In this document: in pieces, positions 7,716 to 37,904 of the stretch
How the letters are laid out: each line of letters opens with the position of its first letter
Position numbering within the stretch: the first letter of the stretch is position 1
NCBI GenBank assembly: GCA_013214665.1
Contig: JABSSA010000082.1
Coordinates: 1 to 39,294, forward strand
Length of the DNA: 39,294 nucleotides
Source: Paracoccaceae bacterium
Lineage (GTDB): Bacteria > Pseudomonadota > Alphaproteobacteria > Rhodobacterales > Rhodobacteraceae
Reading direction: 5' to 3'
Position numbers and translations under genes: made by a program
The notes under the pieces: model-generated
What the model was told of the DNA's origin: nothing
Seen by the model: the letters and a program-made list of their open reading frames with translations, nothing else
Database searches by the model: none

Positions 7716-8233
7716 CTCGCACTATATCTTGTACCCCATACAACTGAAGGTACCGACGGGCGTGTCTGAGTTGAATTGCCTTTTTGTAAATATCCCCAGA
7801 ACAATTTTCTGTAGAAATTTGGACACCTGTCTGGAAAAAAGTCCCATTTTTTTTGAGGCCCTCCGACACCTACTGTCTAAACCCCTGTTTTATATGAGGG
7901 CGCATACAACCCTAACGTTTACACACCCAAAAATGGAAACTTCACGTTTTAGGGGAAAATTAAACGATCTTTAACTAAATCTTAACAATTCAACCCTTGG
8001 TGGGATTTGATCGAATCGCGAAGTAAAGAATCGGTTACTGGCGCCCTGAGATCACAGCCTGAATTGACCACATCATGTGTCGATCGCTGTCACGTTTACC
8101 ATATAGACGAAACGGATCACGCTTCAACTTGTGTTGAACGATTGTGCATTGACGCGCGATGTTCGGCTGAGCGCGCCCGTCAGAGCGCGCACTTATCCTC
8201 ATTCAGATGTTCAGAACTGTTGAAGTGTTAAGG
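7716..8233. other. AT-rich intergenic region with a regulatory array and no convincing gene
   Basis: This 518-base stretch is visibly richer in A and T than its surroundings. It holds the triple TTAA array at 7960-7985 and runs of A and T near 7835-7855. A 41-codon minus-strand reading frame (ATG at 7845-7847, stop at 7722-7724) has GGAGG about 12 bases upstream, but no recognisable product. A small RNA or long leader for the 7254-7715 gene is possible. Confidence 0.45.
7960..7985. promoter_or_regulatory. Tandem CtrA-like boxes (TTAA-N7-TTAA-N7-TTAA)
   Basis: TTAA occurs at 7960-7963, 7971-7974 and 7982-7985, each separated by exactly seven bases. The last two are each followed by C, as in the CtrA consensus TTAA-N7-TTAAC. 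The array is 244 bases upstream of the unknown minus-strand gene ending at 7254. No plus-strand gene with a good start follows. Confidence 0.65.
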
Positions 8234-8926
8234 TCAGCCGGCCATTTGCTGAACAGACAGGCGATACCCAGCCAATCGTATCGTCGATACGCTGATTTCC
8301 TCGCCATAGGCTTTCTCAAGCTTCTTTCGGATGCTTGCGACATGCACATCGAATTTGCGATCGCCGTATTCCCAAGGCCGCCTGTCGACTGCATGGCTCA
8401 GCTCGTCACGCGTGACGATTTCATCCCTGCGGTCGAACAACACCTGCAAAATGAGTTTTTCATTTGGCGTGAGCTCAAGCTCGGTCAACACGGACGGCGA
8501 TGACGACGTAAGAGCCGCCAAGCTACGCACTTTTTGAGGGTCCGCCCCTAAACGCACGCACAACCGCGCCGCAGCCTCTTCCAGCGGACCTGGCCACGCA
8601 ACGATATCATCCGCTCCTGCCAGGAACTGTGTGATGCCGTTGCTCGTATCCGGATTATAGAACGATATCATCGCAGGCGGATTTGGGCCCGATTTGATGT
8701 GTTTGATCATAGCAGCGTCGGCGCCGCTGTCTTGGCGCATGTAGCTGACAATAGCAGCCGGGGGATGTTTCGGGTCGTAAGCGCGCAGCACCGCGTCGCA
8801 GCTATGAAAAAGCTCAATCGTTGCGCCCATCTCATCTGCGAGGACAGCGCGTATCGTTGAGAAGTTCTCGATCTCAGGCGTCACAATCCAGCACAAAAAA
8901 GCAGAGTCGCTCGGCGGCTTATTCAA
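8234..8926 (-). CDS. Atypical OmpR/PhoB-type transcriptional regulator with a non-canonical receiver domain
   Basis: The C-terminal winged-helix DNA-binding domain is clear. It has LTPNEKLILQVLF near residue 152, the helix around TRDELSHAV, KFDVHVASIRKKLEK near 191 and the hairpin STIRLAGYRL near 214. The N-terminal 115 residues look like a receiver fold but lack the acidic pair, have Ser61 (AAIVSYM) at the expected phospho-aspartate position, and lack the conserved lysine. It may therefore act without phosphorylation, like the flagellar regulators FtcR and Rem of rhizobia-related bacteria. The TTG start at 8926 is chosen because GGGGAAAGG precedes it and the resulting 230 residues match the family. 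A GTG at 9037 is the longer option. Confidence 0.78.
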   Translation of the reverse strand: MNKPPSDSAFLCWIVTPEIENFSTIRAVLADEMGATIELFHSCDAVLRAYDPKHPPAAIVSYMRQDSGADAAMIKHIKSGPNPPAMISFYNPDTSNGITQFLAGADDIVAWPGPLEEAAARLCVRLGADPQKVRSLAALTSSSPSVLTELELTPNEKLILQVLFDRRDEIVTRDELSHAVDRRPWEYGDRKFDVHVASIRKKLEKAYGEEISVSTIRLAGYRLSVQQMAG

Positions 8927-9562
8927 TGCAAAACCTTTCCCCACAGGCGGGCCCTTGGCGGCTCGCCATAAAATTCTGACTTTACTAGGAAAATCCAACC
9001 GGCTTGATGATCTCAAAGCACGGTTAGGGCAGCGCACAACTCGTTACCGTTATAGCATATCAAGGATTAGAAGACGTGCAAGTATTGTCAAAAATTTAAC
9101 CTTGCGTTGTTAAACACGGCCAAGGCTGCAGAAGCGCCAGGGACATCAATTGAAAGTACCTTATGGCGAAGCCTATCACATCATACTCGCGCCAACCTGC
9201 CGGCGTTGAGGCTATTATGAAGCTCGATCACCTCATCACCTCTGTGCAGCAAACGTCGATATCACGCGGCATCCTTGTCGAAGCCAAGCGCGTGATTCAG
9301 GAGGCTGAACACCGTGGAGTGATTCAAATGGGAAGAACGAATACCCGCAAAAATAGTATGCATTAACAATAATTTGTGGGACAACATTCACGCTATCCGC
9401 GGAATTACGCAGTTTATACTTGAAAAATACGAAAGTTTTATGACGCGGGCGATAAACTGCTCAAACATAGGCGTGATTACATGTCAGAATTCTTGACAAT
9501 CCTTAACGACAACGCAATTAATCGCTCCGGGTCCAGCAAGGACAGTTAAGGTTGGTATAAGT
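8927..9562. other. Intergenic region between divergent regulators
   Basis: The stretch upstream of the OmpR-type regulator and MucR is AT-rich, with scattered TTAA words (around 9098, 9112, 9365, 9503, 9518 and 9546). Their spacings do not fit the seven-base CtrA gap. Only one weak small reading frame (9163-9366) is seen. It likely carries promoters for both regulators, but no clear -35/-10 pair was assigned. Confidence 0.4.
9163..9366 (+). CDS. Possible small protein, unknown
   Basis: This 67-codon frame starts MAKPITSYSRQPAGVEAIMKLDHL and ends in a basic tail. An internal ATG at 9217 would give about 49 residues (MKLDHLITSVQQTSISRG). No strong ribosome-binding site precedes either start, and no family is recognised. 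The predicted helical segment ILVEAKRVIQEAEHRG looks protein-like, which is the main reason to keep it. It could be non-coding leader sequence upstream of mucR. Confidence 0.3.
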   Translation: MAKPITSYSRQPAGVEAIMKLDHLITSVQQTSISRGILVEAKRVIQEAEHRGVIQMGRTNTRKNSMH

Positions 9563-10081
9563 ATGACAGTGTTAACTCCAGAGAACTTTGCCGCGTCGTC
9601 TGCGCAAAGTGAGACGTCACCAAAATCGAAGGGCGCAAGCCTGACGACCAGCGATGCTGCGTTGATCATTTCGGCATTTGCCGGACGCGGCGCCGCAACA
9701 GTCGACGAAGTTGTCGACCTCACAAAACGCCTTTTGGATCTGGAGCCTTCCCCAGTTCAAGGAAACGTCATTGCTGCTGTCGTTGAGACAGCCATGGGCT
9801 CAGCACAAGACACGCCGGCCGTAGACCCGGCGCTCTCTGTCGACCCTGACAAGGTGACATGTCTGTGCTGCGGTAAGAAATTTACGATGCTCAAACGCCA
9901 CTTGATGGCAGAGCATGGCATGACCGAAGCCGAATACCGCACACGCTTTGGCCTTTCGCCGGATCATCCGCTTGTTGCGCCCAATTATTCCAAGCGCAAA
10001 GCGGATTACGCGCGTCGCATCGGGCTGGGCAAACATGAGCGCGATTTGGCCGCAACAGAAGAATTTCGGCGTAGCCAATAA
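9563..10081 (+). CDS. mucR: Ros/MucR family zinc-finger transcriptional regulator
   Basis: This 172-residue protein has the prokaryotic zinc-finger pattern C100-x2-C103-x9-H113-x4-H118 within CLCCGKKFTMLKRHLMAEHG. The family's TEAEYRTRFGLSPDHPLVAPNYSKRKADYARRIGLG block follows. MucR proteins bind AT-rich DNA and in alphaproteobacteria often control motility, exopolysaccharide and cell-cycle genes. The N-terminal 90 residues include ALIISAFAGRGAATVDEVVDLTKRLL, the usual oligomerisation region. It sits directly before motB, so a role in flagellar gene control is plausible but inferred from position. Confidence 0.92.
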   Translation: MTVLTPENFAASSAQSETSPKSKGASLTTSDAALIISAFAGRGAATVDEVVDLTKRLLDLEPSPVQGNVIAAVVETAMGSAQDTPAVDPALSVDPDKVTCLCCGKKFTMLKRHLMAEHGMTEAEYRTRFGLSPDHPLVAPNYSKRKADYARRIGLGKHERDLAATEEFRRSQ

Positions 10082-10136
10082 CCCTATTGGCCACGTACCT
10101 TAATTTCGCCACAATTGCGCCTCACTGAGATCCTGA

Positions 10137-10151
10137 TTAATCGGGGATTAA
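10137..10151. promoter_or_regulatory. CtrA-like box upstream of motB
   Basis: TTAA-TCGGGGA-TTAA, with exact seven-base spacing, ends 73 bases before the motB ATG and 55 bases after mucR. The trailing C of the full consensus is absent on both strands. Confidence 0.6.
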
Positions 10152-10224: not shown

Positions 10225-11460
10225 ATGGCTGATACGGCGCAGGCAAAGATTTTCAAGAAAGTCGAAGTCGTCGAAGGTGGTGGTCACCACGGCGGCGGTT
10301 GGAAGGTGGCGTATGCCGACTTCATGACCGCGATGATGGCTTTCTTTTTGTTGATGTGGATCTTGTCCAGCTCGGACGAGCAAAAGCTGCGCGGCATTGC
10401 AGAATACTTTACGACTGCGACCTTGCCTGGCGGCAGTGGCGTGTTGGATGGCGCGACATTGGGCCCTCCGGGCACGTTGACCGCATCCAACGGTGCCGTT
10501 GTGGCCCGCGGATCGCAGCTGGGCCAGGTTGATGACCCCTCCCCCGCACAATGGGAAGTGAAAGATGTCACCCCAACGGTTGATCCCAAAGAAGTTGTTT
10601 TGGGCACGCGCGTCGGCGATCAACTCAATCCGGCGGGTGGCAGCCCATCGGACGAAGTGAACGCTGCGCAAGCTGATGCAGGTGACACAGAAGGCGACAA
10701 AGCCAATGACGCCAGCAATGGCGGCGGCGGCCAATCTGATGGACCAAAAGCCGAGGAACTGGCGCAGTTTGCGGATTTGCAGGCCGAGATTTTGCAGGCG
10801 ATGGACGCGCACCCTGATCTTTCGCCTCTCAAACCGAATGTGATTTTTGAACAAACGCCCGAAGGGCTGCGCATTCAGATTGTTGACCAAAAGGGCAAGC
10901 CGATGTTTGCCAGCGGTAAAGCCAATCTGTTGAGCGCATCGAAGCTGCTGATGGCGACCCTCGGGGAATCGATCTCTAAGTTGCCCAATGACATTGTTCT
11001 GTCAGGCCACACGGACTCCGTACCTTTTGCGGACAGTTCAAAGTATGACAACTGGGATTTGTCTTCGGACCGGGCGAATGCCATCCGCCGCACCTTTGTG
11101 CAATCCGGCGTGACCAGAGGGCGGATTATCCGGGTTTCCGGCATGGCAGATACGCAGCCTTTGGTACCCGAAGATACCCGGCATCCGTCTAACCGTCGGA
11201 TCAGCATTCTGGTCCAACATCAAGCAGCGATGGACCGTCGTGCGGCCAATGAAAAGGCGATCATGGAGAAAAAGACCATGATGGCAGATGCGGCGGACGA
11301 CTCGATGGAGAAGTCAGACGCAATGGGCACCAAAATGGCTGACACAGCGATGGAGCCCAAGATGGCGAAACCAGTGATGGAAAAGCCAGCTGAGACGGAA
11401 ACGCGACTGACATCGATTGATGACGAAGTCTTTGAAAAGCTGCGCAACGCGCTGAGATAG
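10225..11460 (+). CDS. motB: Flagellar motor stator protein MotB
   Basis: This 411-residue protein has one N-terminal membrane helix (about residues 29-48). The conserved proton-pathway aspartate is Asp32, in YADFMTAMMAFFLLMWILSS. The C-terminal OmpA-like peptidoglycan-binding domain shows LSGHTDSVPF, DLSSDRANAIRR and HPSNRRISILV. Residues about 95-175 form a low-complexity linker. After the OmpA domain comes an unusual tail of about 60 residues holding ten methionines, then a short acidic/basic end. MotB anchors the stator and, with MotA, converts ion flow into torque. It is separated from motA by a gene on the opposite strand. Confidence 0.93.
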   Translation: MADTAQAKIFKKVEVVEGGGHHGGGWKVAYADFMTAMMAFFLLMWILSSSDEQKLRGIAEYFTTATLPGGSGVLDGATLGPPGTLTASNGAVVARGSQLGQVDDPSPAQWEVKDVTPTVDPKEVVLGTRVGDQLNPAGGSPSDEVNAAQADAGDTEGDKANDASNGGGGQSDGPKAEELAQFADLQAEILQAMDAHPDLSPLKPNVIFEQTPEGLRIQIVDQKGKPMFASGKANLLSASKLLMATLGESISKLPNDIVLSGHTDSVPFADSSKYDNWDLSSDRANAIRRTFVQSGVTRGRIIRVSGMADTQPLVPEDTRHPSNRRISILVQHQAAMDRRAANEKAIMEKKTMMADAADDSMEKSDAMGTKMADTAMEPKMAKPVMEKPAETETRLTSIDDEVFEKLRNALR

Positions 11461-11475: not shown

Positions 11476-12063
11476 CTACGCGTAGTGACGAAAAGCTGGA
11501 CGTGCCGCACCACGGCGCACAGAGGAAAAGACGAAACGCCGCGCGCTTTCCACCGAAACTTTGTGCCGGGTGGTGAGCAGCGGAGCCATTTCGGTCGCAG
11601 ATTTCGGGCGCAATTTACCAAAGTAATTGGCCCCCTTCCGGCCACGCTGCGGCGCGCGGGCGGCGGCGGGTTCGTCAACGGGCAAGCCCATGAATTTGGC
11701 TGGGCTCAATCCCTCTTCCATCGCGAAGGTGTAATTGGCGGCATAGTCTTCGGCCTCATCAAGCAGGCCATCGGTTTCGGCCAAGATGCTCAAAAGAGCG
11801 ATCTCGTCGCTGTAGCGCAGGCTGAACGTCGGATAACCTCGCATCTCGGGGACGAGCTGAAGGCGGTTTTCCGTCACATCCATCATCGCACTCAGGCGGC
11901 GTGGGATCACCTCGCGCTCGTCTTCATGAAAGATAACAACACGGCACATTCCATCGGGCGACAGGCAAACCGCCGCGGAAATCGCCTCTGGCCAGTTTTT
12001 CAAAACGCGCCGGATGTCATGCGTTTCCAGCAACACCACCAGCATTGGTTGTTCTTTGGTCAT
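11476..12063 (-). CDS. Unknown protein encoded between motB and motA on the opposite strand
   Basis: From ATG 12063 this is a 195-residue protein starting MTKEQPMLVVLLETHDIRRVLKNWPEAI. The N-terminal half looks like a compact alpha/beta domain (AAVCLSPDGMCRVVIFHE). The C-terminal 60 residues are basic (PQRGRKGANYFGKLRPKS). An ATG at 12120 would add 19 residues, but it lies inside the CtrA-like box at 12113-12127, so 12063 is more likely. Its stop is 15 bases from the motB stop. It shares a divergent promoter region with motA, suggesting co-expression with the motor. I do not recognise the family. Confidence 0.6.
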   Translation of the reverse strand: MTKEQPMLVVLLETHDIRRVLKNWPEAISAAVCLSPDGMCRVVIFHEDEREVIPRRLSAMMDVTENRLQLVPEMRGYPTFSLRYSDEIALLSILAETDGLLDEAEDYAANYTFAMEEGLSPAKFMGLPVDEPAAARAPQRGRKGANYFGKLRPKSATEMAPLLTTRHKVSVESARRFVFSSVRRGAARPAFRHYA

Positions 12064-12112
12064 GGCCTGTGTCCGATCGATGTTCGCAACCCGATTCTTC
12101 TTACCTCCAAGG

Positions 12113-12127
12113 TTAAGCATGAATTAA
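12113..12127. promoter_or_regulatory. CtrA-like box in the divergent motA promoter region
   Basis: TTAA-GCATGAA-TTAA followed by C is a full TTAA-N7-TTAAC match on the + strand. It ends 92 bases before motA and begins 49 bases before the preferred start of the divergent unknown gene. Confidence 0.68.
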
Positions 12128-12219: not shown

Positions 12220-13089
12220 ATGACTATTATACTTGGTTTCCTGGTTATTCTGGGCATGGTCTTTGGGGGCTACTTGCTGTCGGGCGGTGAGATGGGGATC
12301 ATCCTCTACTCTCTGCCATACGAGGCTATGATGATCTGTGGCGCGGCCTTGGGATCGTTCATCGCAGCCAATTCATTTGGCGACATCAAGAGCACGGCCA
12401 AAGCGATTGTCAAAGCGCTCAAGGGACCGAAATGGAAGCATGGCGATTACATCGACTTGCTGAACCTGATGTTTACGCTGTCCAAGATGTATCAGCAAAA
12501 TGGCATGCTGGCGCTGGATGAACACATTGAAAATCCGAAAGAAAGCGCGATTTTCTCGAAGTTCCCTAAACTTCAGAAAGATCACTTTGCCATTGACCTG
12601 ATCACTGATAGCTTTCGGATGTTGGCGTTGCAGTTTGACGACCCCTATCAGGCCGAAGATGTGATCAACAAGAAGCTCAAAAAACACCATCACGAAGCGC
12701 TGGCGGCGCCTCATGGCCTGACAACCGTGTCAGACGCCCTGCCCGCGATCGGGATTGTTGCGGCGGTTTTGGGCGTGATCAAAACGATGGGCTCCATTGA
12801 TAAACCGCCGGCTGTTCTTGGTAAGATGATCGGCGGTGCTTTGGTTGGTACATTCCTTGGGGTGTTCTTGGCCTATTGTTTCGTGGCGCCGGTGTCCAAC
12901 CGCCTGGAAGCGATCGAAGAGCAGGATGGCAACTTCTATGCTGTGATCCGCGACATCTTTATCGCGATCCTGCACAACCACTCCCCTGCGATCTGTGTTG
13001 AGATCGGCCGCGGCAACATCCCGACGTCTCTCCAGCCCAGCTTTTACGAGATGGAAGAGTCGCGTCAGGATCTGGCAGAGGCGGCCTAA
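12220..13089 (+). CDS. motA: Flagellar motor stator protein MotA
   Basis: This 289-residue protein has paired membrane helices at the N terminus (MTIILGFLVILGMVFGGYLL and EAMMICGAALGSFIAAN) and again near residues 170-230 (ALPAIGIVAAVLGVIKTMG, GGALVGTFLGVFLAYCFVAP). A charged cytoplasmic loop lies between them. These match MotA of the proton-driven type. It forms the ion channel and torque-generating interface with FliG. The ATG follows GGATAAAAA. The FliJ-like gene follows after 3 bases. Confidence 0.95.
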   Translation: MTIILGFLVILGMVFGGYLLSGGEMGIILYSLPYEAMMICGAALGSFIAANSFGDIKSTAKAIVKALKGPKWKHGDYIDLLNLMFTLSKMYQQNGMLALDEHIENPKESAIFSKFPKLQKDHFAIDLITDSFRMLALQFDDPYQAEDVINKKLKKHHHEALAAPHGLTTVSDALPAIGIVAAVLGVIKTMGSIDKPPAVLGKMIGGALVGTFLGVFLAYCFVAPVSNRLEAIEEQDGNFYAVIRDIFIAILHNHSPAICVEIGRGNIPTSLQPSFYEMEESRQDLAEAA

Positions 13090-14061: not shown

Positions 14062-14457
14062 TTAAGCCGCCTGTTGCACCTGTGAATTCCACAAGGCGCG
14101 CAATTCATCTGCCAGTGTCATCGGATCAAACGGCTTGGGGATCAGGCCAATATCCTGTGGGTGGGTCATGATGGACTCCCCCCCATCCAGCAGTTTCGCT
14201 GTCATGAAAACGCACGGAATATTCTGAAATTGCGGCATTTTCCGAATTGCAGCGATCGTTTCCGCACCAGTCAGACCTGGCATTTGCATGTCAGACAAAA
14301 CCAACTGTGGATTGAAGTCCGCCACCACATCCAATGCCTTTTCGCCACGGTCCACCTGCACGATGTCCAGCCCGCCGACCAACGTCAGCGCCATACCGGA
14401 AATTTCAAGAATTTCCGGATCATCTTCGACATGCAGAACCTTTACCAAATCGGTCAT
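14062..14457 (-). CDS. CheY-like single-domain response regulator
   Basis: This 131-residue receiver domain has the acidic pocket VEDD (residues 10-13), phospho-aspartate Asp56 in LVLSDMQMPGLTG, the conserved Thr in FMTAK and the lysine in LIPKPFDP. There is no output domain. GAGG lies 5 bases before ATG 14457; a longer frame to 14538 would overlap the kinase and is rejected. It follows the kinase gene by 37 bases and is probably a phosphate acceptor from it or from the Hpt protein. Confidence 0.88.
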   Translation of the reverse strand: MTDLVKVLHVEDDPEILEISGMALTLVGGLDIVQVDRGEKALDVVADFNPQLVLSDMQMPGLTGAETIAAIRKMPQFQNIPCVFMTAKLLDGGESIMTHPQDIGLIPKPFDPMTLADELRALWNSQVQQAA

Positions 14458-14494
14458 GTTTACCTCAAAACTCCATTGTAATTTACAGGTCTTC

Positions 14495-17400
14495 TTAGCC
14501 GGACCGGCGGCGCGCACGACCACGACCGCCTCCTTCACCGCCGGAAAACCGGGAAACGACCCCGCGTTCTGCTTGGATCTCTTGTTCTTTTTCTACGATC
14601 ATCACGATCGGCCAGCCCTTTGGCAGACGCCCGGATGACAGCGGATAGGTGACCATGACAGAGGCCCCGTTCACCGTGTCAAAGAAGGAAATCACGTCTG
14701 CTTCGGTATGCTGGATCAGGCTCACACCCTGGAACCGGTCTTCGACGACCTGTGATCCCTTGTCAGTGAGCCAGTTTTTCACGTCGTCATCATTGCTGAT
14801 GGCGATCTCGGCGATGCCCGCAGGTTTGGCCTTTGCGGGCTCTGCGTCGCCATCTGTGTCTTCTGCTGCATCGGCCTCTTCAGGCTCATCAAAGATCAGC
14901 AGATCGTCACACCCTTCGAACCAATCGGTCATCAACTGGCTGGCGGCCATTGCACGGGTGCTCTCAGTCGGAGACGCCGATGTCACCTCAACGATGCTGA
15001 CTTCACAATTGTCGAGCGCTTCGCGCTGCAACAGATCGCTCAGCAACGCACGCCCATCGGCGGACATCCAGTTCATGATGGAGGATTGCCCCACAACACC
15101 GCGACCCCGAGCCACGGGCAATGCGCTGACACGGCTCAGTTCGAAATCAACCGGTTCGTCGTTGCGCTGTGCTTTTTCGACCAAACGGCTCAACGCCGCT
15201 TCGCCCGGTGCACATGTTTCTACTACATCTGCATCCTGCAATAGCTGGGTAAACTCGCGCGTGCTCAGGTCATCAGCCGCCAGAGCCGGGATCGGAATGA
15301 CATTTTCGCCTTCGACCATTGGCAGGTCGACAAAGAACTCGGTGCCGATGTTCTCTTCACTAACAAAGGAAATCACACCTTTATGCGCTTCAACGATCAG
15401 CTTCACGATCGACAAACCAAGGCCCGTACCGCCTTTGGAGCGTGTGTCAGAGCTGTCGGCTTGCGTGAACTTGTCAAAGATAGTCGGCTGCGCTGCGGCG
15501 GGGATGCCGGAGCCAAAGTCGCGGATGGTGATCCGGTGACGGCCTTCCACTTGCTTGAGCGACACAAGGATCTCGGACCCTTTGGGCGAGAATTTGGCCG
15601 CATTCGACATCAGGTTGTCCATGACCTGACCAAGGCGCGTCTTGTCACCATAAGTCAGGAATTCGCCTTCGTGCTCAGATGGCATCCGACGCAGGGTTAC
15701 ACCAAATTTGTCGGCATAAAATTGATTGGATTCCAAAGAGCTCGTCACCAGCTCATCCAGATCGAATGGCTGCATCTTGAAGTCCATCTTGCCCGCTTCG
15801 ATCTTTTCGAGGTCAAGAATATCGTTGATCAGCATCACCAGACGGTCGCAATTCGTGCTGGCCAATTCGACAACGTTCGACATCTTTTCAGGCATCTCGC
15901 CCACCGCACCAGACATTGCCAAACCGAGCGCCCCTTTCATAGAGGTCAGCGGCGTACGCAATTCGTGGCTCACGGTCGCGATAAATTCGTTTTTCGCCTT
16001 CTCGATCTCTTTACGTTCCGAGACATCGCGGTAAATCGCGATCAGGCGGGGTTCGTCTTGTTCGGGCTGCGCGTATTCGAGGCTGACCTCGTAAGTCACA
16101 CCATTGTCGCCATCACATTCCCAGGTCACGCGGCGTTGCGGTCCTTCGATGATGGCGTCGCTGCGCAGTTTGAATTCATTCAACTGTTCTGGCGACAGAA
16201 TATCCTTGGCGGTGCGGCCCTTAAGCCCGTCCTCCAGCGTCCAGGTGCTTTCAGACGCCGCGTTGGCATACATGATCTCGAGTTGTTTGGGATCGAGCAC
16301 AAGAACCTGATCCTGGATTAACTCTAGAGTGTTGTTGAACCTCTTTTCAGAGGCACCCGCACGGGTTTTGGTTACATCAGAAGCCACAATTGCGATCTCA
16401 CTCAACTCATTACTCATACTGGTCACAGGAACAAATGTACATTGCACCCAAGCCTTTCGCTCTTCGCCTCCGGCCAATTGCAATGGCCCTTGCCACGTTT
16501 TTCCTGCTTCCATTGCCATCTTTATCTCGCCTGCCAATGTTTCTTGGTCAGTGCCGCCCAAGAAATCATCAAATTGGCTGCCAACCAACTCGGCTTTTGA
16601 ATTCCCAACGACCTTTCTGAAATGATCGTTTACATGCGAAATTTGCCCATTTTTTGTCAGCATACAGAAGACAGTGTGTTCTTCGATCGCATTTCGGTAG
16701 AATTCTTTAGATCTAACCTCGGATCTGAGCACAGCTTTCCGGTATTCTGCAATTCTTGCGACGCGGCGCGTTTCCCGCACAAACAGCGCAATTGATCCGA
16801 TAATGAGAAGTAAGATACCAATGATTGGCCATTTGTAAGCGCGAAAGACGCGGACGGTTGCGACGCGCAGATATTGATCGTAAGGGCGAACCCGCAGCGA
16901 AATCAACAGATCATGGATTGCCTGGTAGTTTTGAGGCGCCTGCCAGACAGTATCGCCAGATGTGATTGCTTCGGGGCTGGTTGCCGGCACGCCGAGAAGC
17001 GTGTTGATCACCAGCGTCAAAACATCTTCGTCCACGTTTGGCATCGCGCCCAGAACCCAAGCCGGGAACACCGGGGTGCTGACCCAAAATGGAAAGTCTG
17101 CGAACTGCCTCGGGCTGATTGGACGGAAGTCGTCCATATCCAAAATTCCTTCTTTTTCAAGGCGTTCCAGAACTCCTGCCCGGATGATGCCGACATCCGT
17201 CAACCCTGTGCTGACCGCGTAAACCACTTCTCTTTCGTTGCTTCCGGCAAAGACCATTTCGGAAAACGTGCTCTCGGCTTCCATCCGAAACTTGCGCAGC
17301 TCCTGCATCGCCAACTGCCACCCCATCAACTCGTGCGGCGCGGCAGCGATCACCGAAGTGCCGTCCAGGTCAGACATGTCGCGCAAACCGGAATCCGCGC

Positions 17401-17812: not shown

Positions 17813-17853
17813 TTTGGCCGCCCCCGCCCAAAAAGTCAGAATTTTGTATTCAG

Positions 17854-18210
17854 TTATTCCGCCTGAACGTTATCCTCGATTTCATCAAGAAGTGCCGCCA
17901 TCAGCTCTTCTAACAAATCTGTTTCAACATCGCCTTCGGCCCGCATCAGGACATGCGCCTCTTTTTCGACCTGCGCCGCCAAAGCGCCGATCCGCGGAAA
18001 TCCGAACGATCCCGCTTGGCCGTGAAGCTTGTGTGCCAGCTTGCTGATTTCAGAAACAGCTGCGGCGGTTTGAGTGGGCTCAGCCAGGCAGTCCCACAGG
18101 TCATCGAATGCGCTTACATGTTCTGGCAAAGTCTGGACAAAACGCTCTTTCAAGCGCTCCATACCCGACAGAAGCTGCGCCTTCCGGTCATCTTGGTCTA
18201 TCTGTTCCAT
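17854..18210 (-). CDS. Hpt-domain phosphotransfer protein
   Basis: This 118-residue helical protein has the Hpt motif AHKLHGQAGSFGFPRIGALAA, with His60 as the likely phosphorylated residue. It carries no kinase domain, so it should shuttle phosphate between the neighbouring kinase and a receiver. The stop is 41 bases before the kinase start, and a CtrA-like box lies 84 bases upstream. It thus seems to head the Hpt-kinase-CheY unit. The protein is also a candidate link to other relays such as CckA-CtrA, but that is speculation. Confidence 0.87.
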   Translation of the reverse strand: MEQIDQDDRKAQLLSGMERLKERFVQTLPEHVSAFDDLWDCLAEPTQTAAAVSEISKLAHKLHGQAGSFGFPRIGALAAQVEKEAHVLMRAEGDVETDLLEELMAALLDEIEDNVQAE

Positions 18211-18294
18211 CTGCCCTCACTGCCCGGTTTTCCGGGCCTACTCGTTCCGCTTCGTTGAACGCACTTCCTCATTGTTGAAAGAATCAGGTCGCGT

Positions 18295-18309
18295 TTAAAG
18301 CAGGGTTAA
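18295..18309. promoter_or_regulatory. CtrA-like box upstream of the Hpt-kinase unit
   Basis: TTAA-AGCAGGG-TTAA, with exact seven-base spacing, lies between the RR gene (ends at 18372) and the Hpt start (18210). The fifth base C of the full consensus is absent on both strands. Confidence 0.58.
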
Positions 18310-18371
18310 AAGCCGAAAGGTGCTGCACGCTTTGCAAAGAAGAGATGCCGGGATGCAACACCGCGCGCGCC

Positions 18372-20222: not shown

Positions 20223-20226
20223 CATA

Positions 20227-26194: not shown

Positions 26195-26209
26195 TAACCA
26201 GGCATTAAT
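26195..26209. promoter_or_regulatory. CtrA-like box between divergent fliF and fliL
   Basis: TTAA-CCAGGCA-TTAA, with exact seven-base spacing, lies 36 bases upstream of the fliF start and 81 bases upstream of the fliL start. It could serve either direction. Confidence 0.65.
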
Positions 26210-26290
26210 TTCAAGTACAATATTCTTGAAAAACAAGGACTGCCCAAGTACAGATTGAATCTATACTTGGTTGGGGATTCGAGTCTTTCC

Positions 26291-29141: not shown

Positions 29142-30266
29142 TTATTCCGTGCGCAGCATGGAACCGGAAGGTGGCTTGCGTTTCACGTTCTTTTGCAGAT
29201 CAAAGACATAGCTGACGATCTCGGCCACGATCTCCCAATGCTCGACTGGCACGATGTCTTCCAGTTCCACCGTATCGTAAAGCAAACGCGCCAGCGGTTT
29301 GTTTTCGATCACCGGCACCTCATGCTCAAAGGCGATCTCGCGGATACGGCGGGCCACATTATCGGCCCCTTTGGCCACGCAGCGCGGAGCCAGATCCACA
29401 TCCGGATCATATTGCAAGGCGACAGCATAATGCGTCGGGTTGGTCAGCACGAGTGTGGCCTGCGGCACAATTGAAACGGTGCGCTGATGCGAAAGATCCA
29501 TCCGCTGGCGCGCGCGCTTGGCCCGTACTTCGGGGGAGCCTTCGCTTTCTTTTTGTTCGTCTTTCAGATCCTTGTGGCTCATCCGCTGCTTTTTCATCCA
29601 CTCGAACCTGCGCCACAGGATATCGGCAATGGCAACTGGCACGACAAAGATGGCCACAGCAATCAACAGCTGGCGGGCAGCATCCGCGATGTAACCCAAC
29701 AGGTATTCCGGCAAGAACCCCGTGGTCTGCCAGATGGATTGCACGGCTGAATAGCTGATCCAGAGCGCCAAAGCGCCCACGACAAACACCTTCACCAGGC
29801 TTTTGGCCAACTCGACCAATGAGTTGAGCGAAAAGAGGCGTTTGAACCCCTCGCGCAGTGATACTTTGGACAGCTTGGGCTGAATGCGCTCAAAGGCGAT
29901 AACGGTCTGGCCCTGAATAACGGTGCCAAGGATCGCACCTACGATGAAGACCAGAAAGATGGGCGCAATGGAACGGGCCAGCATCATCGACACATCGCTC
30001 ATCACACTGCCGGCCTGCACGATGCCGGGCTGGCCGGGGGCAATCACGATCTCACCCGCCTTCTCAATCGTCGCCCAAAGCGCAGACACGATAGCTGGCA
30101 ATTGCCAGGGCAGCACCACAACCGTGACGCCAAGCAAGGCAAGGATCACCGTCATGTTCCCGGTTTCTCTGGAACTGGGTACATCCCCTTTCTTGCGCGC
30201 GTCCTGCAGCTTTTTCGGCGTCGGATCTAGGGTTTTTTCCGTACTGTCGTTTTGGTTCTCTGCCAT
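29142..30266 (-). CDS. flhB: Flagellar export switch protein FlhB
   Basis: This 374-residue protein has the N-terminal EKTLDPTPKKLQDARKKGDVPSSRE block and four membrane helices between about 38 and 215. Its cytoplasmic domain carries the self-cleavage site NPTH at about 276-279 (TLVLTNPTHYAVAL). Cleavage switches export from rod/hook to filament substrates. The start is 3 bases after fliR, and it is the last gene of the flgB operon. Confidence 0.96.
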   Translation of the reverse strand: MAENQNDSTEKTLDPTPKKLQDARKKGDVPSSRETGNMTVILALLGVTVVVLPWQLPAIVSALWATIEKAGEIVIAPGQPGIVQAGSVMSDVSMMLARSIAPIFLVFIVGAILGTVIQGQTVIAFERIQPKLSKVSLREGFKRLFSLNSLVELAKSLVKVFVVGALALWISYSAVQSIWQTTGFLPEYLLGYIADAARQLLIAVAIFVVPVAIADILWRRFEWMKKQRMSHKDLKDEQKESEGSPEVRAKRARQRMDLSHQRTVSIVPQATLVLTNPTHYAVALQYDPDVDLAPRCVAKGADNVARRIREIAFEHEVPVIENKPLARLLYDTVELEDIVPVEHWEIVAEIVSYVFDLQKNVKRKPPSGSMLRTE

Positions 30267-30269
30267 GGG

Positions 30270-31025
30270 TTACACGCGGAACCCCATAAGCCATTCCTGA
30301 AATTGCAGGATGTAGAATTCAAGGATCGACGGCATCGACAGCGCAAAGATTAACAACCCGAACCCGATCAACATGGACGCCGCCACAAAGAAGACCGGCA
30401 GCTGTGGCATCAGCCGGTTGGCCAACCCCATGCCCAGGTTCAAGATCACCCCCATCACAAAGAACGGCGCGGCGATGGCGGTGCCGACATAAAGGCTGTG
30501 CGCGCCCATCCGAACGATCTGATCCGCCAGATCGTGGATCATGATCAATCCCGGAGGAAATACGTCATAGCTGGCCAAAAGCGCTCTGAGGATGATGTGG
30601 TGGGTGTCCGTTGCGAAAATCAACGCCACGGCGCTGACCAACATCAGCGTGGCGACCATTGTCGCGCCTTCGAAGGATCCAAAAGACGGGCCAAAGGCAT
30701 TGGCGAGCCCCGAAACCTGCCCGATCTGGTAGCCTGCAAACTGCATCGACGCCAAAAGCACCCGCGCGCACAGCCCAATCCACAGGCCGATTGTCACCTC
30801 AAGACCCAGCATCATCGCCATACCCACCAGCCCGTCAGGAATGGCCGCAGGCAGCTTGACGATGGGCAAAAGGGCCGCGCACAGCACCAGCGCAAAAGAC
30901 AAGCGCGCCCGCACGGGGATTTGCACTTCGCCAAAGCCGGGCATGAACATCAGCGCCGAACCAAGACGTGCAACCACAAGAAAGTAAGAGAAGATCAGCC
31001 CAGCAACAAAGCCATCCAGCGTCAT
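30270..31025 (-). CDS. fliR: Flagellar export gate protein FliR
   Basis: This 251-residue membrane protein with about six helices matches FliR: RLGSALMFMPGFGEVQIPVRARLSFAL, GYQIGQVSGLANAFGPS, then PFFVMGVILNLGMGLANRLMPQLPVFFVAASMLIGFGLLI. It forms part of the FliPQR gate. The start follows the flhA stop by 1 base and flhB follows by 3 bases. fliP lies in another unit and fliQ is upstream in this one. Confidence 0.95.
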   Translation of the reverse strand: MTLDGFVAGLIFSYFLVVARLGSALMFMPGFGEVQIPVRARLSFALVLCAALLPIVKLPAAIPDGLVGMAMMLGLEVTIGLWIGLCARVLLASMQFAGYQIGQVSGLANAFGPSFGSFEGATMVATLMLVSAVALIFATDTHHIILRALLASYDVFPPGLIMIHDLADQIVRMGAHSLYVGTAIAAPFFVMGVILNLGMGLANRLMPQLPVFFVAASMLIGFGLLIFALSMPSILEFYILQFQEWLMGFRV

Positions 31026-31026
31026 C

Positions 31027-33132
31027 TCATGACCCCAAAGTGCCGACGGTCCGCAGCGACGATTTGCGATGCACTTCGTTGTGCGAAATCACATTGGTCA
31101 TCGGGCTGACCCGCTCAAGAATGGACCGCAGATAGGGCCGCACCTTGGGCGTGACCAAAATCGCGGGCCATTGATCCCCTTCCGAGAATTTCTGGATTTC
31201 CTGACGCAACAACAGCACCAGCTCTTGCACCCGTGTGGGCGACAACAGGAACGTATCCTGCCCATCGGCATTGGAGATCGAATTGGTCAGCTCTGTTTCC
31301 CACGACGCGCCCAGATTGATCACCGGCACATAGCCCTTTTCATCCGCCAAAGACTGGCAGATTTGCTTGGCCAGCTTGGTGCGCACATGTTCGACGATGT
31401 TCTTGATGTTCTGTGTTGTAGCCGTCGCTTCGGCGATGGCTTCGACGATTTTGGGCAGATTGCGGATCGACACGCGCTCGGACAGCAGCGCCTGCAACAC
31501 ATGTTGCAGTGTGACCGCTGGCGCGTTGACCGCACAATCGCTCAGCAGCTTTTGATAATCCTTGTGCAGCCCGTCAATCAGCTCTTGCGTCATCTCGTAT
31601 GACAAGATTTCGGGCAAGTGTTCTTTGATCACCTCAGTCAAATGTGTGGTGATGACGCTTTCGGGGTCCACCACGGTAAAGCCCATATTCTCGGCCTGCA
31701 TTGCGCTGTCTTCATCGACCCACATCGCCTCCAGCCCAAATGTGGGCTCGCGGGTTTTCTCACCGGGAATACCAAGCTCTTCGCCTGTTGGGTTGATGAC
31801 CATCATCATCAATGGATTGACCTCGCCCTTGGCGGTCTCAACCCCTTGCAGTTCAATGGAATAGGTCTTTCCGGGCAAAGCCGGATCATCCTTGATCCGC
31901 ACTGGCGGAAGGACAAATCCGTATTCTTTGATAAACAGCATTCGCAGGCTTTTGACCTTGTTTGGCAAGATCGAATCCATCGACGTGATCAGCGACACAA
32001 GACCGGTGCCAAGGCTGAGTCGCACATCATCGACGCGCAGCATTTCCGGGATAGATTCTTCCTCTTCCTCGCCCTTTTGTTCAGGTGTCTGCGCCTGTGC
32101 ATCGCCCATCCGCTCTCGCAGCGCGACCTGCTGGCGCACGACATAGCCCGCACCGACCAAGGCCGCTGACAGAGCCATGAAAATCACTGTGGGAAAGCCG
32201 GGCAACCAGCCGATGACAAAGATCAAACCAGCAGACAAAAACAGCGCCTTAGGGAAGTTGCCAAGCTGTGTGATCACCGCCTCGTTGGCGGCCCCCTTGG
32301 TGCGCCCCTTGGTCACCAAAAGACCCGCGGACAACGAAACCACGAGCGCGGGGATTTGGGTGACCAGACCGTCACCAATGGTCAGCACGGAATAGTTGCT
32401 CACCGCCTCACCGGCCGTGAGATCCTTGGTCGCCATGCCGATCACGATCCCGCCGATCACGTTGATCAACGTGATGATGATGCCCGCAACCGCATCACCG
32501 CGCACAAACTTGGACGCACCATCCATCGCCCCGAAAAAGGCGCTTTCCTCTTCTACCTGTTTGCGGCGTTCCTTGGCTTCTGCTTCATCTATGATCCCTG
32601 CCGCCAGATCCGCATCAATCGCCATCTGTTTGCCCGGCAACGCATCCAATGAGAACCGTGCCGCAACTTCGGCAATCCGGGTAGCACCTTTGGTGATTAC
32701 GATGAAATTGATGATCACAAGGATCGCAAAGACAATGATCCCGATGATGAAATCACCACCCACGATGAAATTGGCAAAGCCTTCGATCACCTGCCCTGCG
32801 GCACCGGCACCATTATGGCCTTCGCTCAGGATCAAACGGGTGGACGAGATGTTGAGCGCCAGCCGCAGCATGGTCACGACCAACAGAATGGTCGGGAAGC
32901 TGTCAAAGTCCAACGGCGTTTTGATCCAAAGCGCAACCATCAGGATCAGCACGGACAGCGAAATCGACAAAGCCAACCCGAAGTCCAGCATCACCGGCGG
33001 CAATGGCACAAAGAGCATCGCCAGGATCAGCATCACGCCAACAGCAAACAGGATATCCCGGTTGTTTTGGCCGAAAGACGACAGATCAAATGAAAACGGC
33101 AACGCGTTTGCCGGGCGGGTGTCTTCGCTCAT
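31027..33132 (-). CDS. flhA: Flagellar export apparatus protein FlhA
   Basis: This 701-residue protein has about eight N-terminal membrane helices. The conserved FlhA loop includes FIVITKGATRIAEVAARFSLDALPGKQMAIDADLAAGIIDEAEAKERR and SAFFGAMDGASKFVRGDAVAG, which holds the proton-coupled region. The C-terminal cytoplasmic domain (from about 345) binds substrates and chaperones. The length is normal. It overlaps the lytic transglycosylase gene by 4 bases (ATGA). Confidence 0.97.
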   Translation of the reverse strand: MSEDTRPANALPFSFDLSSFGQNNRDILFAVGVMLILAMLFVPLPPVMLDFGLALSISLSVLILMVALWIKTPLDFDSFPTILLVVTMLRLALNISSTRLILSEGHNGAGAAGQVIEGFANFIVGGDFIIGIIVFAILVIINFIVITKGATRIAEVAARFSLDALPGKQMAIDADLAAGIIDEAEAKERRKQVEEESAFFGAMDGASKFVRGDAVAGIIITLINVIGGIVIGMATKDLTAGEAVSNYSVLTIGDGLVTQIPALVVSLSAGLLVTKGRTKGAANEAVITQLGNFPKALFLSAGLIFVIGWLPGFPTVIFMALSAALVGAGYVVRQQVALRERMGDAQAQTPEQKGEEEEESIPEMLRVDDVRLSLGTGLVSLITSMDSILPNKVKSLRMLFIKEYGFVLPPVRIKDDPALPGKTYSIELQGVETAKGEVNPLMMMVINPTGEELGIPGEKTREPTFGLEAMWVDEDSAMQAENMGFTVVDPESVITTHLTEVIKEHLPEILSYEMTQELIDGLHKDYQKLLSDCAVNAPAVTLQHVLQALLSERVSIRNLPKIVEAIAEATATTQNIKNIVEHVRTKLAKQICQSLADEKGYVPVINLGASWETELTNSISNADGQDTFLLSPTRVQELVLLLRQEIQKFSEGDQWPAILVTPKVRPYLRSILERVSPMTNVISHNEVHRKSSLRTVGTLGS

Positions 33133-33962
33133 GGCGTGCCCTCCCCGGCTTGTGCGGTAAAGAATGCGTTGCGGATGGGCATGACCGTATAGATCGAATG
33201 ATATCCGACAGATCCGCCTTCATCCCCGGGCGCGATATTGGCGGTCCAATGCACATCAGGCGGTGGCACAGTGATCTTGGGCGGGCTTTCGGGGTCTACA
33301 TTCGACGCCGCAATCACCAGATCGGCTATATCCCCTAGCCCTTGGTTGGCCCGCTCCTGATTTTGCACCAGCTTGGCGAGATAAGCCGTTTTGTAGCGTT
33401 CGGTTGCCGAATGATAGCGGCCGGCGGCCTCCCACCAGCTGCCGGTCTCTTGCTTGAGACGCACCAAAAACCGTGCTGCGTAATCCACGTTTTCGCGCGG
33501 GTCGAGCGCATGATCCAGATCGCGAAAGGCGCGGCCATGCCAATGCAGATTGATCTGCATACAGCCCACATCAATCGATTGCACACCGTCGGCTTGCCGG
33601 CTGCGCACCCAGGCTTTCACCCCCGCCTTATCGCGCAGAAAGGCCCCCGTGCCGACGGCGTTGGCCGTCCAAGGCCACACCGTATCGGTGCCATCCACGC
33701 GTCGGCCCGCCTCTTGCAGGCCAATGGCCAACAACAGATTGCCCGGAATGTCATGACGGATTTGCGCCTCAAATATCTCAAGCAAACAGACCGAAGACGC
33801 ATCAGTTGCAAAGGTGATCGGCTGCTGCTGAGCTGTGCGTTGCGCAGGCTCCGTGGGGCGGTAAAAATCACCCCAGGCTTCAGACGCCAAAGTCGCCGCC
33901 GAGGACGCCGCGCAAGACAGGCTCACCGTCACGCCCAGAACGGCTGTTCGCCACGCGCCCAT
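33129..33962 (-). CDS. Flagellar-operon lytic transglycosylase (SLT domain)
   Basis: This 277-residue protein has a signal peptide (about 1-26) and a transglycosylase domain. The likely catalytic Glu84 is in LLLAIGLQEAGRR, with the hallmark VGCMQINLHWHG near 137, then ENVDYAARFLVRLKQETGSWWEAAGRYHS. It should cut peptidoglycan to let the rod through, replacing the muramidase domain missing from FlgJ here. ATG 33962 lies 1 base after the fliQ stop; a longer frame to 34001 lies within fliQ and is rejected. Confidence 0.87.
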   Translation of the reverse strand: MGAWRTAVLGVTVSLSCAASSAATLASEAWGDFYRPTEPAQRTAQQQPITFATDASSVCLLEIFEAQIRHDIPGNLLLAIGLQEAGRRVDGTDTVWPWTANAVGTGAFLRDKAGVKAWVRSRQADGVQSIDVGCMQINLHWHGRAFRDLDHALDPRENVDYAARFLVRLKQETGSWWEAAGRYHSATERYKTAYLAKLVQNQERANQGLGDIADLVIAASNVDPESPPKITVPPPDVHWTANIAPGDEGGSVGYHSIYTVMPIRNAFFTAQAGEGTP

Positions 33963-33963
33963 A

Positions 33964-34233
33964 TCAGCCGAACCCATTGACGATGAAATCAAAAATCGCA
34001 TCCGACAACACAGTCAGCGACGCGAACATAAAGGGCAGTGTCAGCACAACAGTCAGAAAGATCGCCGCAATTTTTGGCACAAACGTCAGCGTCATTTCCT
34101 GGATCTGCGTCAGAGCCTGGAAAAACGCGATCACAAGGCCAACCCCCAGCGCAATCAACAACACCGGGGCCGAGGCCCAAAGTGTTGTCATGATTGTCTG
34201 TCGGATCATGTCATAGGCTGTTGTCGCATCCAT
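33964..34233 (-). CDS. fliQ: Flagellar export gate protein FliQ
   Basis: This 89-residue protein with two membrane helices includes ASAPVLLIALGVGLVIAFFQALTQIQEMTLTFVPKI and FLTVVLTLPFMFASLTVLSD. It is the FliQ subunit of the export gate. It follows fliE by 14 bases. Confidence 0.95.
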   Translation of the reverse strand: MDATTAYDMIRQTIMTTLWASAPVLLIALGVGLVIAFFQALTQIQEMTLTFVPKIAAIFLTVVLTLPFMFASLTVLSDAIFDFIVNGFG

Positions 34234-34247
34234 TGCCCTGTCCGCCC

Positions 34248-34580
34248 TTAGATCGGCATTCTCAGAACTTCCTGGTAGGCTTCCACCAGCTTGTCGCGCA
34301 GCGCGACAGACACCTGAACGGTGCTTTCCATCGCCATGGTTGCTTCGACCACCTGCTGGACCGTGGCATTGCCGCTGACCCCGGCAATGGCCGTCTGGTC
34401 CCCGGTGCGCACAGTCTCAACAGCCCCCGCCGCAGCCTCTGCGACCATCTGCGAAAAGCTGTTGGTCTTTTCGGCCATGTCCGCCTGCGGAATACCCGAT
34501 TGCGACGTCTTGGTTTGCGTCGCATTGGCATAGGCAGATTTGATCTCAGCCGCTGATCTGATAGAGGAAAAATCAGTCAT
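34248..34580 (-). CDS. fliE: Flagellar hook-basal body adaptor FliE
   Basis: This 110-residue protein has the FliE C-terminal half VQQVVEATMAMESTVQVSVALRDKLVEAYQEVLRMPI, with an Ala-rich, polar N terminus. It joins the MS ring to the rod and is among the first exported parts. It follows flgC by 9 bases. Confidence 0.95.
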   Translation of the reverse strand: MTDFSSIRSAAEIKSAYANATQTKTSQSGIPQADMAEKTNSFSQMVAEAAAGAVETVRTGDQTAIAGVSGNATVQQVVEATMAMESTVQVSVALRDKLVEAYQEVLRMPI

Positions 34581-34589
34581 CTCAGCCCC

Positions 34590-35000
34590 TTACCGCAACA
34601 GATCGACCAGAAGTCGCCGCATTTCACGCGCGTTTTCCATCATCGACAAGTTGGCCTCATAGCTGCGCGCTGCTTCGCGCATATTGCTCATCTCGATCAA
34701 CGGATTGACGTCAGGCATTTTCACATAACCGTTCTCATCCGCAGCCGGATGTGTCGGCTCGTACCGCAGCTTGAAACTGCCATCGTGTTGTTCAATGTCG
34801 CCAATCTGCACGATGGCCGCATCCACATCGCCCACCTTTGCCGCCTCAAACGACACCGATTTGCGCGCATAGGGCTCTCCACCCGGTGTTTGCGAGGTCG
34901 AATAGGCATTCGCCACGTTTTCGGACACCACCTGAAGACGTTCGGATTGTGCGCGCATCCCACTGGATGCGATGGTGCTGATCAGCTTGAGCGGATCCAT
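34590..35000 (-). CDS. flgC: Flagellar proximal rod protein FlgC
   Basis: This 136-residue rod protein begins with the SGMRAQSERLQVVSENVANAYST motif and contains NGYVKMPDVNPLIEMSNMREAARSYEANLSMMENAREM near the end. GAGGAGG lies 6 bases before ATG 35000, the strongest ribosome-binding site in this unit. flgB precedes it by 16 bases. Confidence 0.96.
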   Translation of the reverse strand: MDPLKLISTIASSGMRAQSERLQVVSENVANAYSTSQTPGGEPYARKSVSFEAAKVGDVDAAIVQIGDIEQHDGSFKLRYEPTHPAADENGYVKMPDVNPLIEMSNMREAARSYEANLSMMENAREMRRLLVDLLR

Positions 35001-35016
35001 GTCCTACCTCCTCAGG

Positions 35017-35370
35017 TTATCGTCTGGTTGCGACGGAAATCAGCATTTCATGCGCTTTCCGGTACAGATTTGCCGCGACGCGGTATTGCCCGGCGTTCGA
35101 TGAGGCTTCCATGATCTGCTCTTCCAGCACGACATTGTTGCCGGTCAGGTCTTCGCCCCAGCTTGCCTTGGCCTCGACCACTTGCGCCTGATAACCCGCC
35201 TGGGCCTTCGAAGAACTGGTCACAAAGCTTTCAAAGCTCTCAACTTCGCGCGCCCGGTATTCGGCCACGTCAGCATTGGCGATATTCTCGGAAATCACGC
35301 GCTGCCGCTCCGACAGCCACTGCAACCGCTGGGACGCCACTTGAAACAGACTGGTTTCTTTCAAGTTCAT
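35017..35370 (-). CDS. flgB: Flagellar proximal rod protein FlgB
   Basis: This 117-residue rod protein has RLQWLSERQRVISENIANADVAEYRAREVESFESF and ends ASSNAGQYRVAANLYRKAHEMLISVATRR. It forms the cell-proximal rod. GAGGTGAG lies 6 bases before ATG 35370. It is the first gene of the flgB-flgC-fliE-fliQ-SLT-flhA-fliR-flhB unit, with a CtrA-like box 46 bases upstream. Confidence 0.95.
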   Translation of the reverse strand: MNLKETSLFQVASQRLQWLSERQRVISENIANADVAEYRAREVESFESFVTSSSKAQAGYQAQVVEAKASWGEDLTGNNVVLEEQIMEASSNAGQYRVAANLYRKAHEMLISVATRR

Positions 35371-35416: not shown

Positions 35417-35431
35417 TTAATAAAGAATTAA
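35417..35431. promoter_or_regulatory. CtrA-like box between divergent flgB and fliI
   Basis: TTAA-TAAAGAA-TTAA has exact seven-base spacing. On the minus strand it reads TTAA-TTCTTTA-TTAAC, the full consensus facing flgB, 46 bases from the flgB start. It lies only 12 bases before the fliI ATG at 35444. Confidence 0.7.
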
Positions 35432-36976: not shown

Positions 36977-37798
36977 TTAACGGAACAAGCTCAAAATGTT
37001 TTGCGGCGCCTGGTTCGCGATCGAAAGCGACTGCGTTGCAAGCTGCTGCTGTACCTGGAAGGCCTGGAGACGTGCAGCCTCCTCTTCCATATCTGCATCG
37101 ACCATGGCGGAAATGCCCGTGTCGAGTGTATCGGTGAGGCTCTCAAGGAACATCATCTGGCCATCAAGCGTTTTCTCGCTTACACCAAGGCTGGTGGCCG
37201 CGGTAATCGCATCAGCCAGCGCACCTTCCGCTGTGGACAGATCCGCCACGAGGTCGGTTGAAGTGGACACGTCAATGGCTGCCAGTGTGGTCTGGATCGC
37301 GCCCAAGTCGACTTCTGTGATGTCGATGGTGGTCAGCGCGAAAGAACCGCTGGCACGGGAAACACCCGTCACAACCGAGACTGTGCTTGTGGAGTCAACG
37401 AGGTTGTCACCGTTAAATGTGGACTGACTGATCGCCGAACCGATCTGTGCGACGAGGCTGTCAAGCTCCAGCTGCACGTCAGCGGTGTTGATACCGTTGC
37501 CCTGGGCAAACGCGACCCGCTCAACAAAACTTTCAGCAAGATCGCTGACTGTCTCAGCACCCAAACGTGCTGTTGCAACAGAGTTTTTCGTGGATGTCAT
37601 GCCTTCATTGATGGCTTTGAACATCCCGCTATCGCCCTTCATCGTCTCAGAGATGGCGAAGTAAGCGGCGTTTTCTTTACCTGAACGCACCTGCAAACCG
37701 GAAGACACCCGGTTTTGCGTTTCATTCAAGCCCCGATTGACATTGTTCAAGGTGGCCAGAGCCACCATTGCCGAATTATTGGTGAGAATGGACGACAT
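36977..37798 (-). CDS. fliC: Flagellin 2 (filament protein)
   Basis: This 273-residue flagellin begins MSSILTNNSAMVALATLNNVNRGLNETQNRVSSGLQVRSGKENAAYFAISE and ends QAPQNILSLFR. It is nearly identical to flagellin 1 in the first 100 residues but diverges in the middle (about 110-200). It is likely a second filament protein. Unlike flagellin 1, it has a CtrA-like box upstream (37890-37904). It shares the leader hairpin and a similar ribosome-binding region (GGAGAGC). It lies downstream of flgI-flgJ-flgN on the same strand. Confidence 0.95.
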   Translation of the reverse strand: MSSILTNNSAMVALATLNNVNRGLNETQNRVSSGLQVRSGKENAAYFAISETMKGDSGMFKAINEGMTSTKNSVATARLGAETVSDLAESFVERVAFAQGNGINTADVQLELDSLVAQIGSAISQSTFNGDNLVDSTSTVSVVTGVSRASGSFALTTIDITEVDLGAIQTTLAAIDVSTSTDLVADLSTAEGALADAITAATSLGVSEKTLDGQMMFLESLTDTLDTGISAMVDADMEEEAARLQAFQVQQQLATQSLSIANQAPQNILSLFR

Positions 37799-37801
37799 TT
37801 A

Positions 37802-37847
37802 ATGCTCTCCTCAATTCTCTTTTTTTATGTTCAGTCTTCTGACTGAC
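37802..37847 (-). promoter_or_regulatory. Flagellin 2 5'-leader hairpin and ribosome-binding region
   Basis: The minus strand at 37847-37832 reads GTCAGTCAGAAGACTG, identical to the flagellin 1 leader. It folds as CAGTC-AGAA-GACTG and can extend through ATGT/ACAT with one bulged A. AAAAAAAGAGAATTGAGGAGAGC follows, similar to flagellin 1, with the ATG 33 bases after the hairpin. It is a candidate FlbT site. Confidence 0.65.
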
Positions 37848-37889
37848 ATCAGCTTTTTCTGCCGACGCCCGAACCTAAGCTGGAGGAGA

Positions 37890-37904
37890 TTAAAGGGGCG
37901 TTAA
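37890..37904. promoter_or_regulatory. CtrA-like box upstream of flagellin 2
   Basis: On the + strand TTAA-AGGGGCG-TTAA followed by C; on the minus strand it is TTAA-CGCCCCT-TTAA. It lies 91 bases upstream of the flagellin 2 ATG and about 40 bases upstream of the leader hairpin. Confidence 0.67.

Follow-up and report, generated by a model that had tools for sequence, protein, structure and literature searches.

Several flagellar clusters of Rhodobacterales are known to be controlled by CtrA. In R. (Cereibacter) sphaeroides, the divergent flgB2–fliI2 and fliL2–fliF2 promoters are CtrA-controlled (PMC6180460), and in Dinoroseobacter shibae and Phaeobacter inhibens the CtrA phosphorelay controls the flagellar cluster and quorum sensing, together with the gene transfer agent (GTA) in D. 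shibae (PMC4046655; PMC12363192). The sequence TTAA-N7-TTAAC has been used to predict D. shibae sites at fliI, flgB, flgE and others (PMC4046655; PMC12363192). We analyzed a 39,294-nt stretch of DNA (the window), contig C451 of a 4.27-Mb, 469-contig Paracoccaceae genome, which carries a flagellar gene island with nine exact copies of TTAA-N7-TTAA (the box). These boxes are likely to be CtrA-type operators driving the island, which also encodes a paralogue of CtrA, here called CtrP.

Gene order and an FlhA of the Marinovum algicola type identify the island as a flagellar cluster of the fla2 type. Its FlhA, the only one in the assembly, shares 58–74% identity with the FlhA of 11 of 120 family members and at most 42% with that of the others that have one, except for a 56% fragment in G091. 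Fla2 is described as a horizontally spread flagellar type (PMC12363192), and gene content and neighborhoods match those of the fla2-type cluster on pMaD5 of M. algicola DG898 and on Sulfitobacter plasmids, including a response regulator between flgI and flgL. The island resembles R. sphaeroides in its gene pairs, in the one box between fliF and fliL, in the CtrA-type half sites and in the presumed box position at about −35. It differs in that the R. sphaeroides cluster is called fla3-type (PMC12363192) and in that the R. sphaeroides flgB–fliI pair has two imperfect sites, whereas this island has one exact box there. The D. shibae and P. inhibens clusters, for their part, are fla1-type, and the non-fla2 clusters counted below have fewer exact boxes. 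CtrA control of flagellar clusters, including the flgB–fliI and fliL–fliF pairs, is already published for Rhodobacterales, and the box itself is ordinary. New, as far as our literature search shows, are the CtrA paralogue carried by the island, how exact and how dense the boxes are in fla2 clusters, and a second motif.

Exact boxes in the window, the genome and the family

The nine boxes lie at eight loci, against 0.09 expected from dinucleotide shuffles, none of which (0 of 100) contained nine or more. When we scanned the window for TTAA-Nk-TTAA with k from 0 to 25, k = 7 gave nine matches and every other k at most one; other A+T tetramers showed no comparable signal. As TTAA-N7-TTAA is its own reverse complement, the box gives no strand. 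A C follows a TTAA half (TTAAC) on at least one strand in six of the nine, little more than the half or so expected by chance.

The leftmost locus holds two overlapping boxes (7960–7985, starting at 7960 and 7971), in which three TTAA copies follow each other in steps of 11 bp; the pair lies 244 bp upstream of a reverse-strand gene (7254–7715). The next box, between mucR and motB (10137–10151), is 73 bp upstream of motB (10225–11460, forward; Pfam MotB_plug and OmpA). The box at 12113–12127 lies upstream of both motA (12220–13089, forward) and a divergent reverse-strand gene (11476–12120), whose longest reading touches it. Two further boxes precede the reverse-strand gene for a 118-residue Hpt phosphotransfer protein (PF01627, 17854–18210; box 18295–18309, 84 bp upstream) and the forward flaF–flbT unit (19824–20649; box 19753–19767, 56 bp upstream of flaF and some 400 bp upstream of a receiver-domain gene on the reverse strand, 18372–19349). 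Single boxes lie between divergent fliF and fliL (26194–26208) and between divergent flgB (reverse) and fliI (forward; 35417–35431). The start of fliF (24434–26158, reverse), judged from its N-terminus and relatives, is most likely near 26158, about 36 bp from the box; the start of fliL (26291–27013, forward) is that of the gene finder. The last box (37890–37904), the best-conserved box position in relatives, is 91 bp upstream of flagellin 2 (36977–37798, reverse). Nearly all gene groups of the island have a box; an exact one was looked for and not found in the window at flagellin 1 (6260), the regulator gene 8234–9037 and mucR (9563). The eight loci had been listed in a preliminary description of the sequence, and all are present, with one box that it placed at 26195 starting at 26194. 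Pfam bears out its naming of motB, motA, Hpt, flaF–flbT, fliF/fliL, flgB/fliI and flagellin 2 as neighbors, and its placement of the boxes between genes holds with sensible start codons.

The island very probably continues on contig C117 (L043), because both contigs end inside flgI and fit one FlgI with a gap of about 15 residues, as aligned to Sulfitobacter FlgI: the window ends with the C-terminal part (38755–39291, reverse), and C117 starts with the N-terminal part. A tenth exact box (C117:595–609) lies between flgI and the CtrP gene (C117:735–1442), just past the right end of the window, followed by flgL, flgK and flgE.

The preliminary description had proposed scanning the whole genome with the pattern. 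The scan returned 42 N7 sites, against 31 in all for N3–N6 and 31 in all for N8–N11 (7.75 per spacing each). Ten lie in the island (C451 and C117, 51.6 kb; 0.09 expected) and 32 in the rest of the genome (7.75 expected), a density about 25 times higher in the island than elsewhere. We rejected AATT-N7-AATT (29 versus 42) as a control, since AATT is far commoner than TTAA, and used other spacings instead. All 32 family genomes counted had more N7 boxes than the mean of N9–N12, the lowest excess being 2.2-fold; they include two in which no FlhA was found (G002 and G068). The excess was 5.6-fold in the 11 genomes with CtrP (207 versus 36.75) and 4.8-fold in the 21 without (564 versus 117.25). These counts rule out both a confinement of boxes to the island and an occurrence of exact boxes only where CtrP exists. 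All 32 distinct non-window sites (33 before collapsing) are intergenic, although this alone shows little, TTAA being uncommon in coding DNA.

TTAA-N7-TTAA is thus a general CtrA-type site rather than an island-specific one, as it is enriched in family genomes with or without the island, and its reader should therefore be a regulator common to all of them. CtrA fits, because this sequence is its known target and the genome encodes a true copy that passes the curated model (NF045991, 423 bits, cut-off 350). Among 30 genes near other boxes scanned with Pfam were a LuxR-type regulator, PAS-histidine kinases and a GTA-like gene, classes reported as CtrA-dependent in roseobacters (PMC4046655; PMC12363192). 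Others (RTX, exopolysaccharide, RadC and RepA) are not named among the CtrA-dependent classes in the available parts of those papers, and five of the 30 had no Pfam match. One open frame of 361 residues (L012, 1931–3013), with a box about 416 bp upstream, matches terminase, GTA TIM-barrel and phage-tail families and is either a GTA gene reduced in size or the product of a join made in assembly.

Promoter geometry and a second motif

We compared promoters across 74 loci of named Rhodobacterales that have this type of island, taken from 80 after excluding L240–L245 as not Rhodobacterales. An exact N7 box lay upstream of flagellin at 36 of 68 loci, in the flgI–CtrP interval at 12 of 74 and in the flgB–fliI interval at 4 of 23, with 0–3 occurrences of other spacings there. 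The putative flgE promoter keeps a 6-bp spacing of its own, TTAA-N6-TTAA being present in 23 of 66 relatives and here at C117:5460–5473. Aligned on the box, the flagellin promoters are of the type TTAACC-N5-TTAACC, and 34 of 36 have an A 12 nt after it. In the mapped promoters of R. sphaeroides, an A is at −11 and transcription starts 23–24 nt from the box (PMC6180460); the A of the flagellin promoters appears to agree with that geometry. Each of the two flagellin genes also has a CAGTC-AGAA-GACTG hairpin sequence in its 5′ leader (6217–6230 and 37832–37845), with the strict form in 21 of 68 relatives. This hairpin may be a site for FlbT, a translation regulator.

In de novo counts on the intergenic DNA of 11 fla2 islands, the highest-ranking 4+4 dyad was TTAA-N7-TTAA, and the highest-ranking 8-mers were words of the form CAAG-N-ATA[GA]. 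The latter motif, CAAGNATAR, has 76 copies in the 11 fla2 islands, compared with 11 copies in 23 other clusters, and shows no enrichment across the genome (106 versus 110 for the reversed motif). It was found between flgI and CtrP in 60 of 74 loci, between flgB and fliI in 21 of 23 and at flgF in 29 of 63, but at flagellin in only 1 of 68 and at flaF in 0 of 44; the present island has copies at 26261–26269 and at C117:573–581. CAAGNATAR thus marks putative early promoters and not flagellin. A role as a −10 element at a fixed distance from the box was rejected, as there is no fixed distance. Its candidacy as a site for CtrP or for the sigma factor of fla2 islands (see below) is weakened, because the island of G105 has seven copies and neither gene was found there.

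CtrA and CtrP as candidate readers

In the reading that we favor, with fairly good confidence, the boxes are CtrA-type operators. One winged-helix domain would read each TTAA half, and a dimer would sit side by side along the 11-bp step, with the box at about the −35 position of the promoter; a single box between divergent genes could serve both. We infer binding, activation and their dependence on phosphorylation: the host phosphorelay would yield phosphorylated CtrA, which would bind the boxes and switch on the flagellar units.

CtrP is the closest paralogue of CtrA. It scores below the cut-off of the CtrA model (114 versus 350 bits), and the two form one clade with 99/98 support in a tree of 24 proteins, in which long-branch warnings concern other rows. 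Their recognition helices are almost identical (PFDKVIDVYICKLRKK in CtrP versus PELKIIDVFICKLRKK in CtrA; IDVYICKLRKK versus IDVFICKLRKK), and a helix of the CtrA type is absent from the eight other OmpR-type proteins of the genome that were compared. In the receiver of CtrP, VFEPR replaces LVEDD and VSPI replaces TKPF; the acidic pair is gone, as is the acceptor Asp, and in the Rhodobacterales CtrP members compared the Lys is missing too. CtrP occurs in 11 of 12 genomes with a fla2-type FlhA and has strong matches in no other of 121 genomes; its gene lies between flgI and flgL in three named islands and among flagellar genes in four records. FtcR/Rem of Brucella and Sinorhizobium are likewise OmpR-type regulators encoded among flagellar genes. 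The predicted structure of CtrP keeps the OmpR/PhoB fold (predicted local distance difference test score 85, predicted template modeling score 0.54), with 2hqr among the structure matches, the solved structure of Helicobacter pylori HP1043, which is a phosphorylation-independent orphan OmpR/PhoB regulator (PMC8345958). As modeled, CtrP resembles HP1043 in fold and in its degenerate receiver; unlike HP1043, it groups with CtrA and lies among flagellar genes. A literature search, with subscription literature mostly outside its coverage, found no paper on CtrP or on a CtrA-like flagellar paralogue. Because the recognition helices are almost identical, the boxes could be read by CtrA and CtrP alike, and CtrP would be the probable second reader of some of them, an assignment that we make tentatively.

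Four points weigh against CtrA as the regulator behind the boxes. First, the CtrP helix is so close to that of CtrA that, within the island, the boxes could in fact be read by CtrP. Second, non-fla2 clusters, which the literature describes as CtrA-controlled, contain only five exact boxes in 23 clusters, although the same 23 have 114 one-mismatch N7 sites against a background of 46.6 per spacing. Third, flagellin 2 of the island itself has T rather than A 12 nt after its box; the fit to CtrA promoters therefore applies to the family and not to every copy. Fourth, no conserved −10 element was found at non-island boxes (33 oriented stretches, two of them from the C117 island box).

The strongest alternative holds that boxes in fla2 islands are read mainly by CtrP, active without phosphorylation, which would give the island an activator of its own and partly free it from the host CtrA phosphorelay. 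The tie of CtrP to fla2, its place between flgI and flgL, its near-identical helix, its lost pocket residues and its grouping with CtrA all favor this, as does box density: at low GC content, three fla2 islands have 24 exact boxes (263 TTAA) and 13 other clusters have one (552 TTAA), one-mismatch N7 sites being predominant in the latter (81 versus 40 per spacing). In these counts, the G021 and G076 regions are excluded, as their FlhA lies elsewhere in the genome, the G039 and G066 islands are partial, with FlhA outside the stretch covered, and non-fla2 clusters are typed by FlhA identity of at most 42% rather than individually proven fla1. The fla2-like island of G105 (L129, L130), in which flgL is followed directly by flgI, has no CtrP, no exact box and seven copies of CAAGNATAR. 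However, genome-wide box enrichment is similar with and without CtrP, high-GC fla2 islands are poor in exact boxes (six in eight), and the CtrP-less cluster is a single case. The link between box density in low-GC fla2 islands and CtrP is suggestive only, because the three box-rich islands are related. We regard CtrP as the main reader as unlikely.

Far less probable still is that the boxes are sites of the OmpR-type protein encoded at 8234–9037 (reverse) and not of CtrA or CtrP. Its gene lies beside the tandem boxes and its receiver is degenerate, but its recognition helix (YGDRKFDVHVASIRKKL) differs from that of CtrA, its relatives are only 28–38% identical over part of the protein, and no clear match to it was found in most of the fla2 islands examined, whereas the box is enriched in all genomes. 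Chance or base composition, which might seem to suffice because TTAA is concentrated in A+T-rich intergenic DNA, where all examined sites lie, is refuted by the spacing control, in which other spacings and A+T tetramers gave no signal and other spacings were five times rarer genome-wide.

The proposal of the preliminary description, direct CtrA control of the whole island, therefore stands in part. The sites are of CtrA type, given the encoded CtrA, the N7 enrichment in the genome and its relatives, and the flagellin geometry. "Whole island" is too wide, since some units have no box and flgE has the N6 form. Direct control by CtrA is not the sole reading either, given a second motif and an island-encoded paralogue of CtrA whose helix is nearly the same.

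Taken alone, the boxes bear out a regulatory scheme known from other alphaproteobacterial flagella, here in a further genome and in another flagellar type. Fla2 clusters are passed from species to species, often by plasmids, and the coordination of expression between two flagellar clusters is described as an open question (PMC12363192). A shared operator format with an island-borne CtrA look-alike offers a concrete, testable answer; CtrA site predictions in fla2-bearing genomes may have two readers. Together, the boxes and the look-alike may account for the way in which such islands come under the regulation of a new host. More speculatively, fla2 might be a portable wiring kit. Its universal CtrA-format operators could be run by any Rhodobacterales host, while CtrP, blind to phosphorylation, would read the same operators and drive or gate the island apart from the host cell-cycle relay. 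A second, island-specific element, CAAGNATAR, would mark early promoters, and the element present would distinguish these (basal body, CtrP) from late promoters (flagellin). We consider this possible but doubtful.

Other genes of the island

A reverse-strand run of flgB–flgC–fliE–(fliQ)–SLT–flhA–fliR–flhB, with the fla2-like FlhA, occupies 29142–35370. Unlike other fla2 islands, the window also contains a block (14062–19349) comprising a kinase whose sensor domain is of the phosphonate-binding type, a single receiver, the Hpt protein and a larger receiver protein. This block was not found whole elsewhere: among 15 other islands or island parts, its kinase was present only in G070 and G036, and its Hpt protein in none. 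A close copy of the sigma-70 family factor of fla2 islands was found neither in this assembly nor in G105; the factor (for example, L144:33308–33988) accompanies the fla2 island in all 10 of 10 CtrP-bearing relatives.

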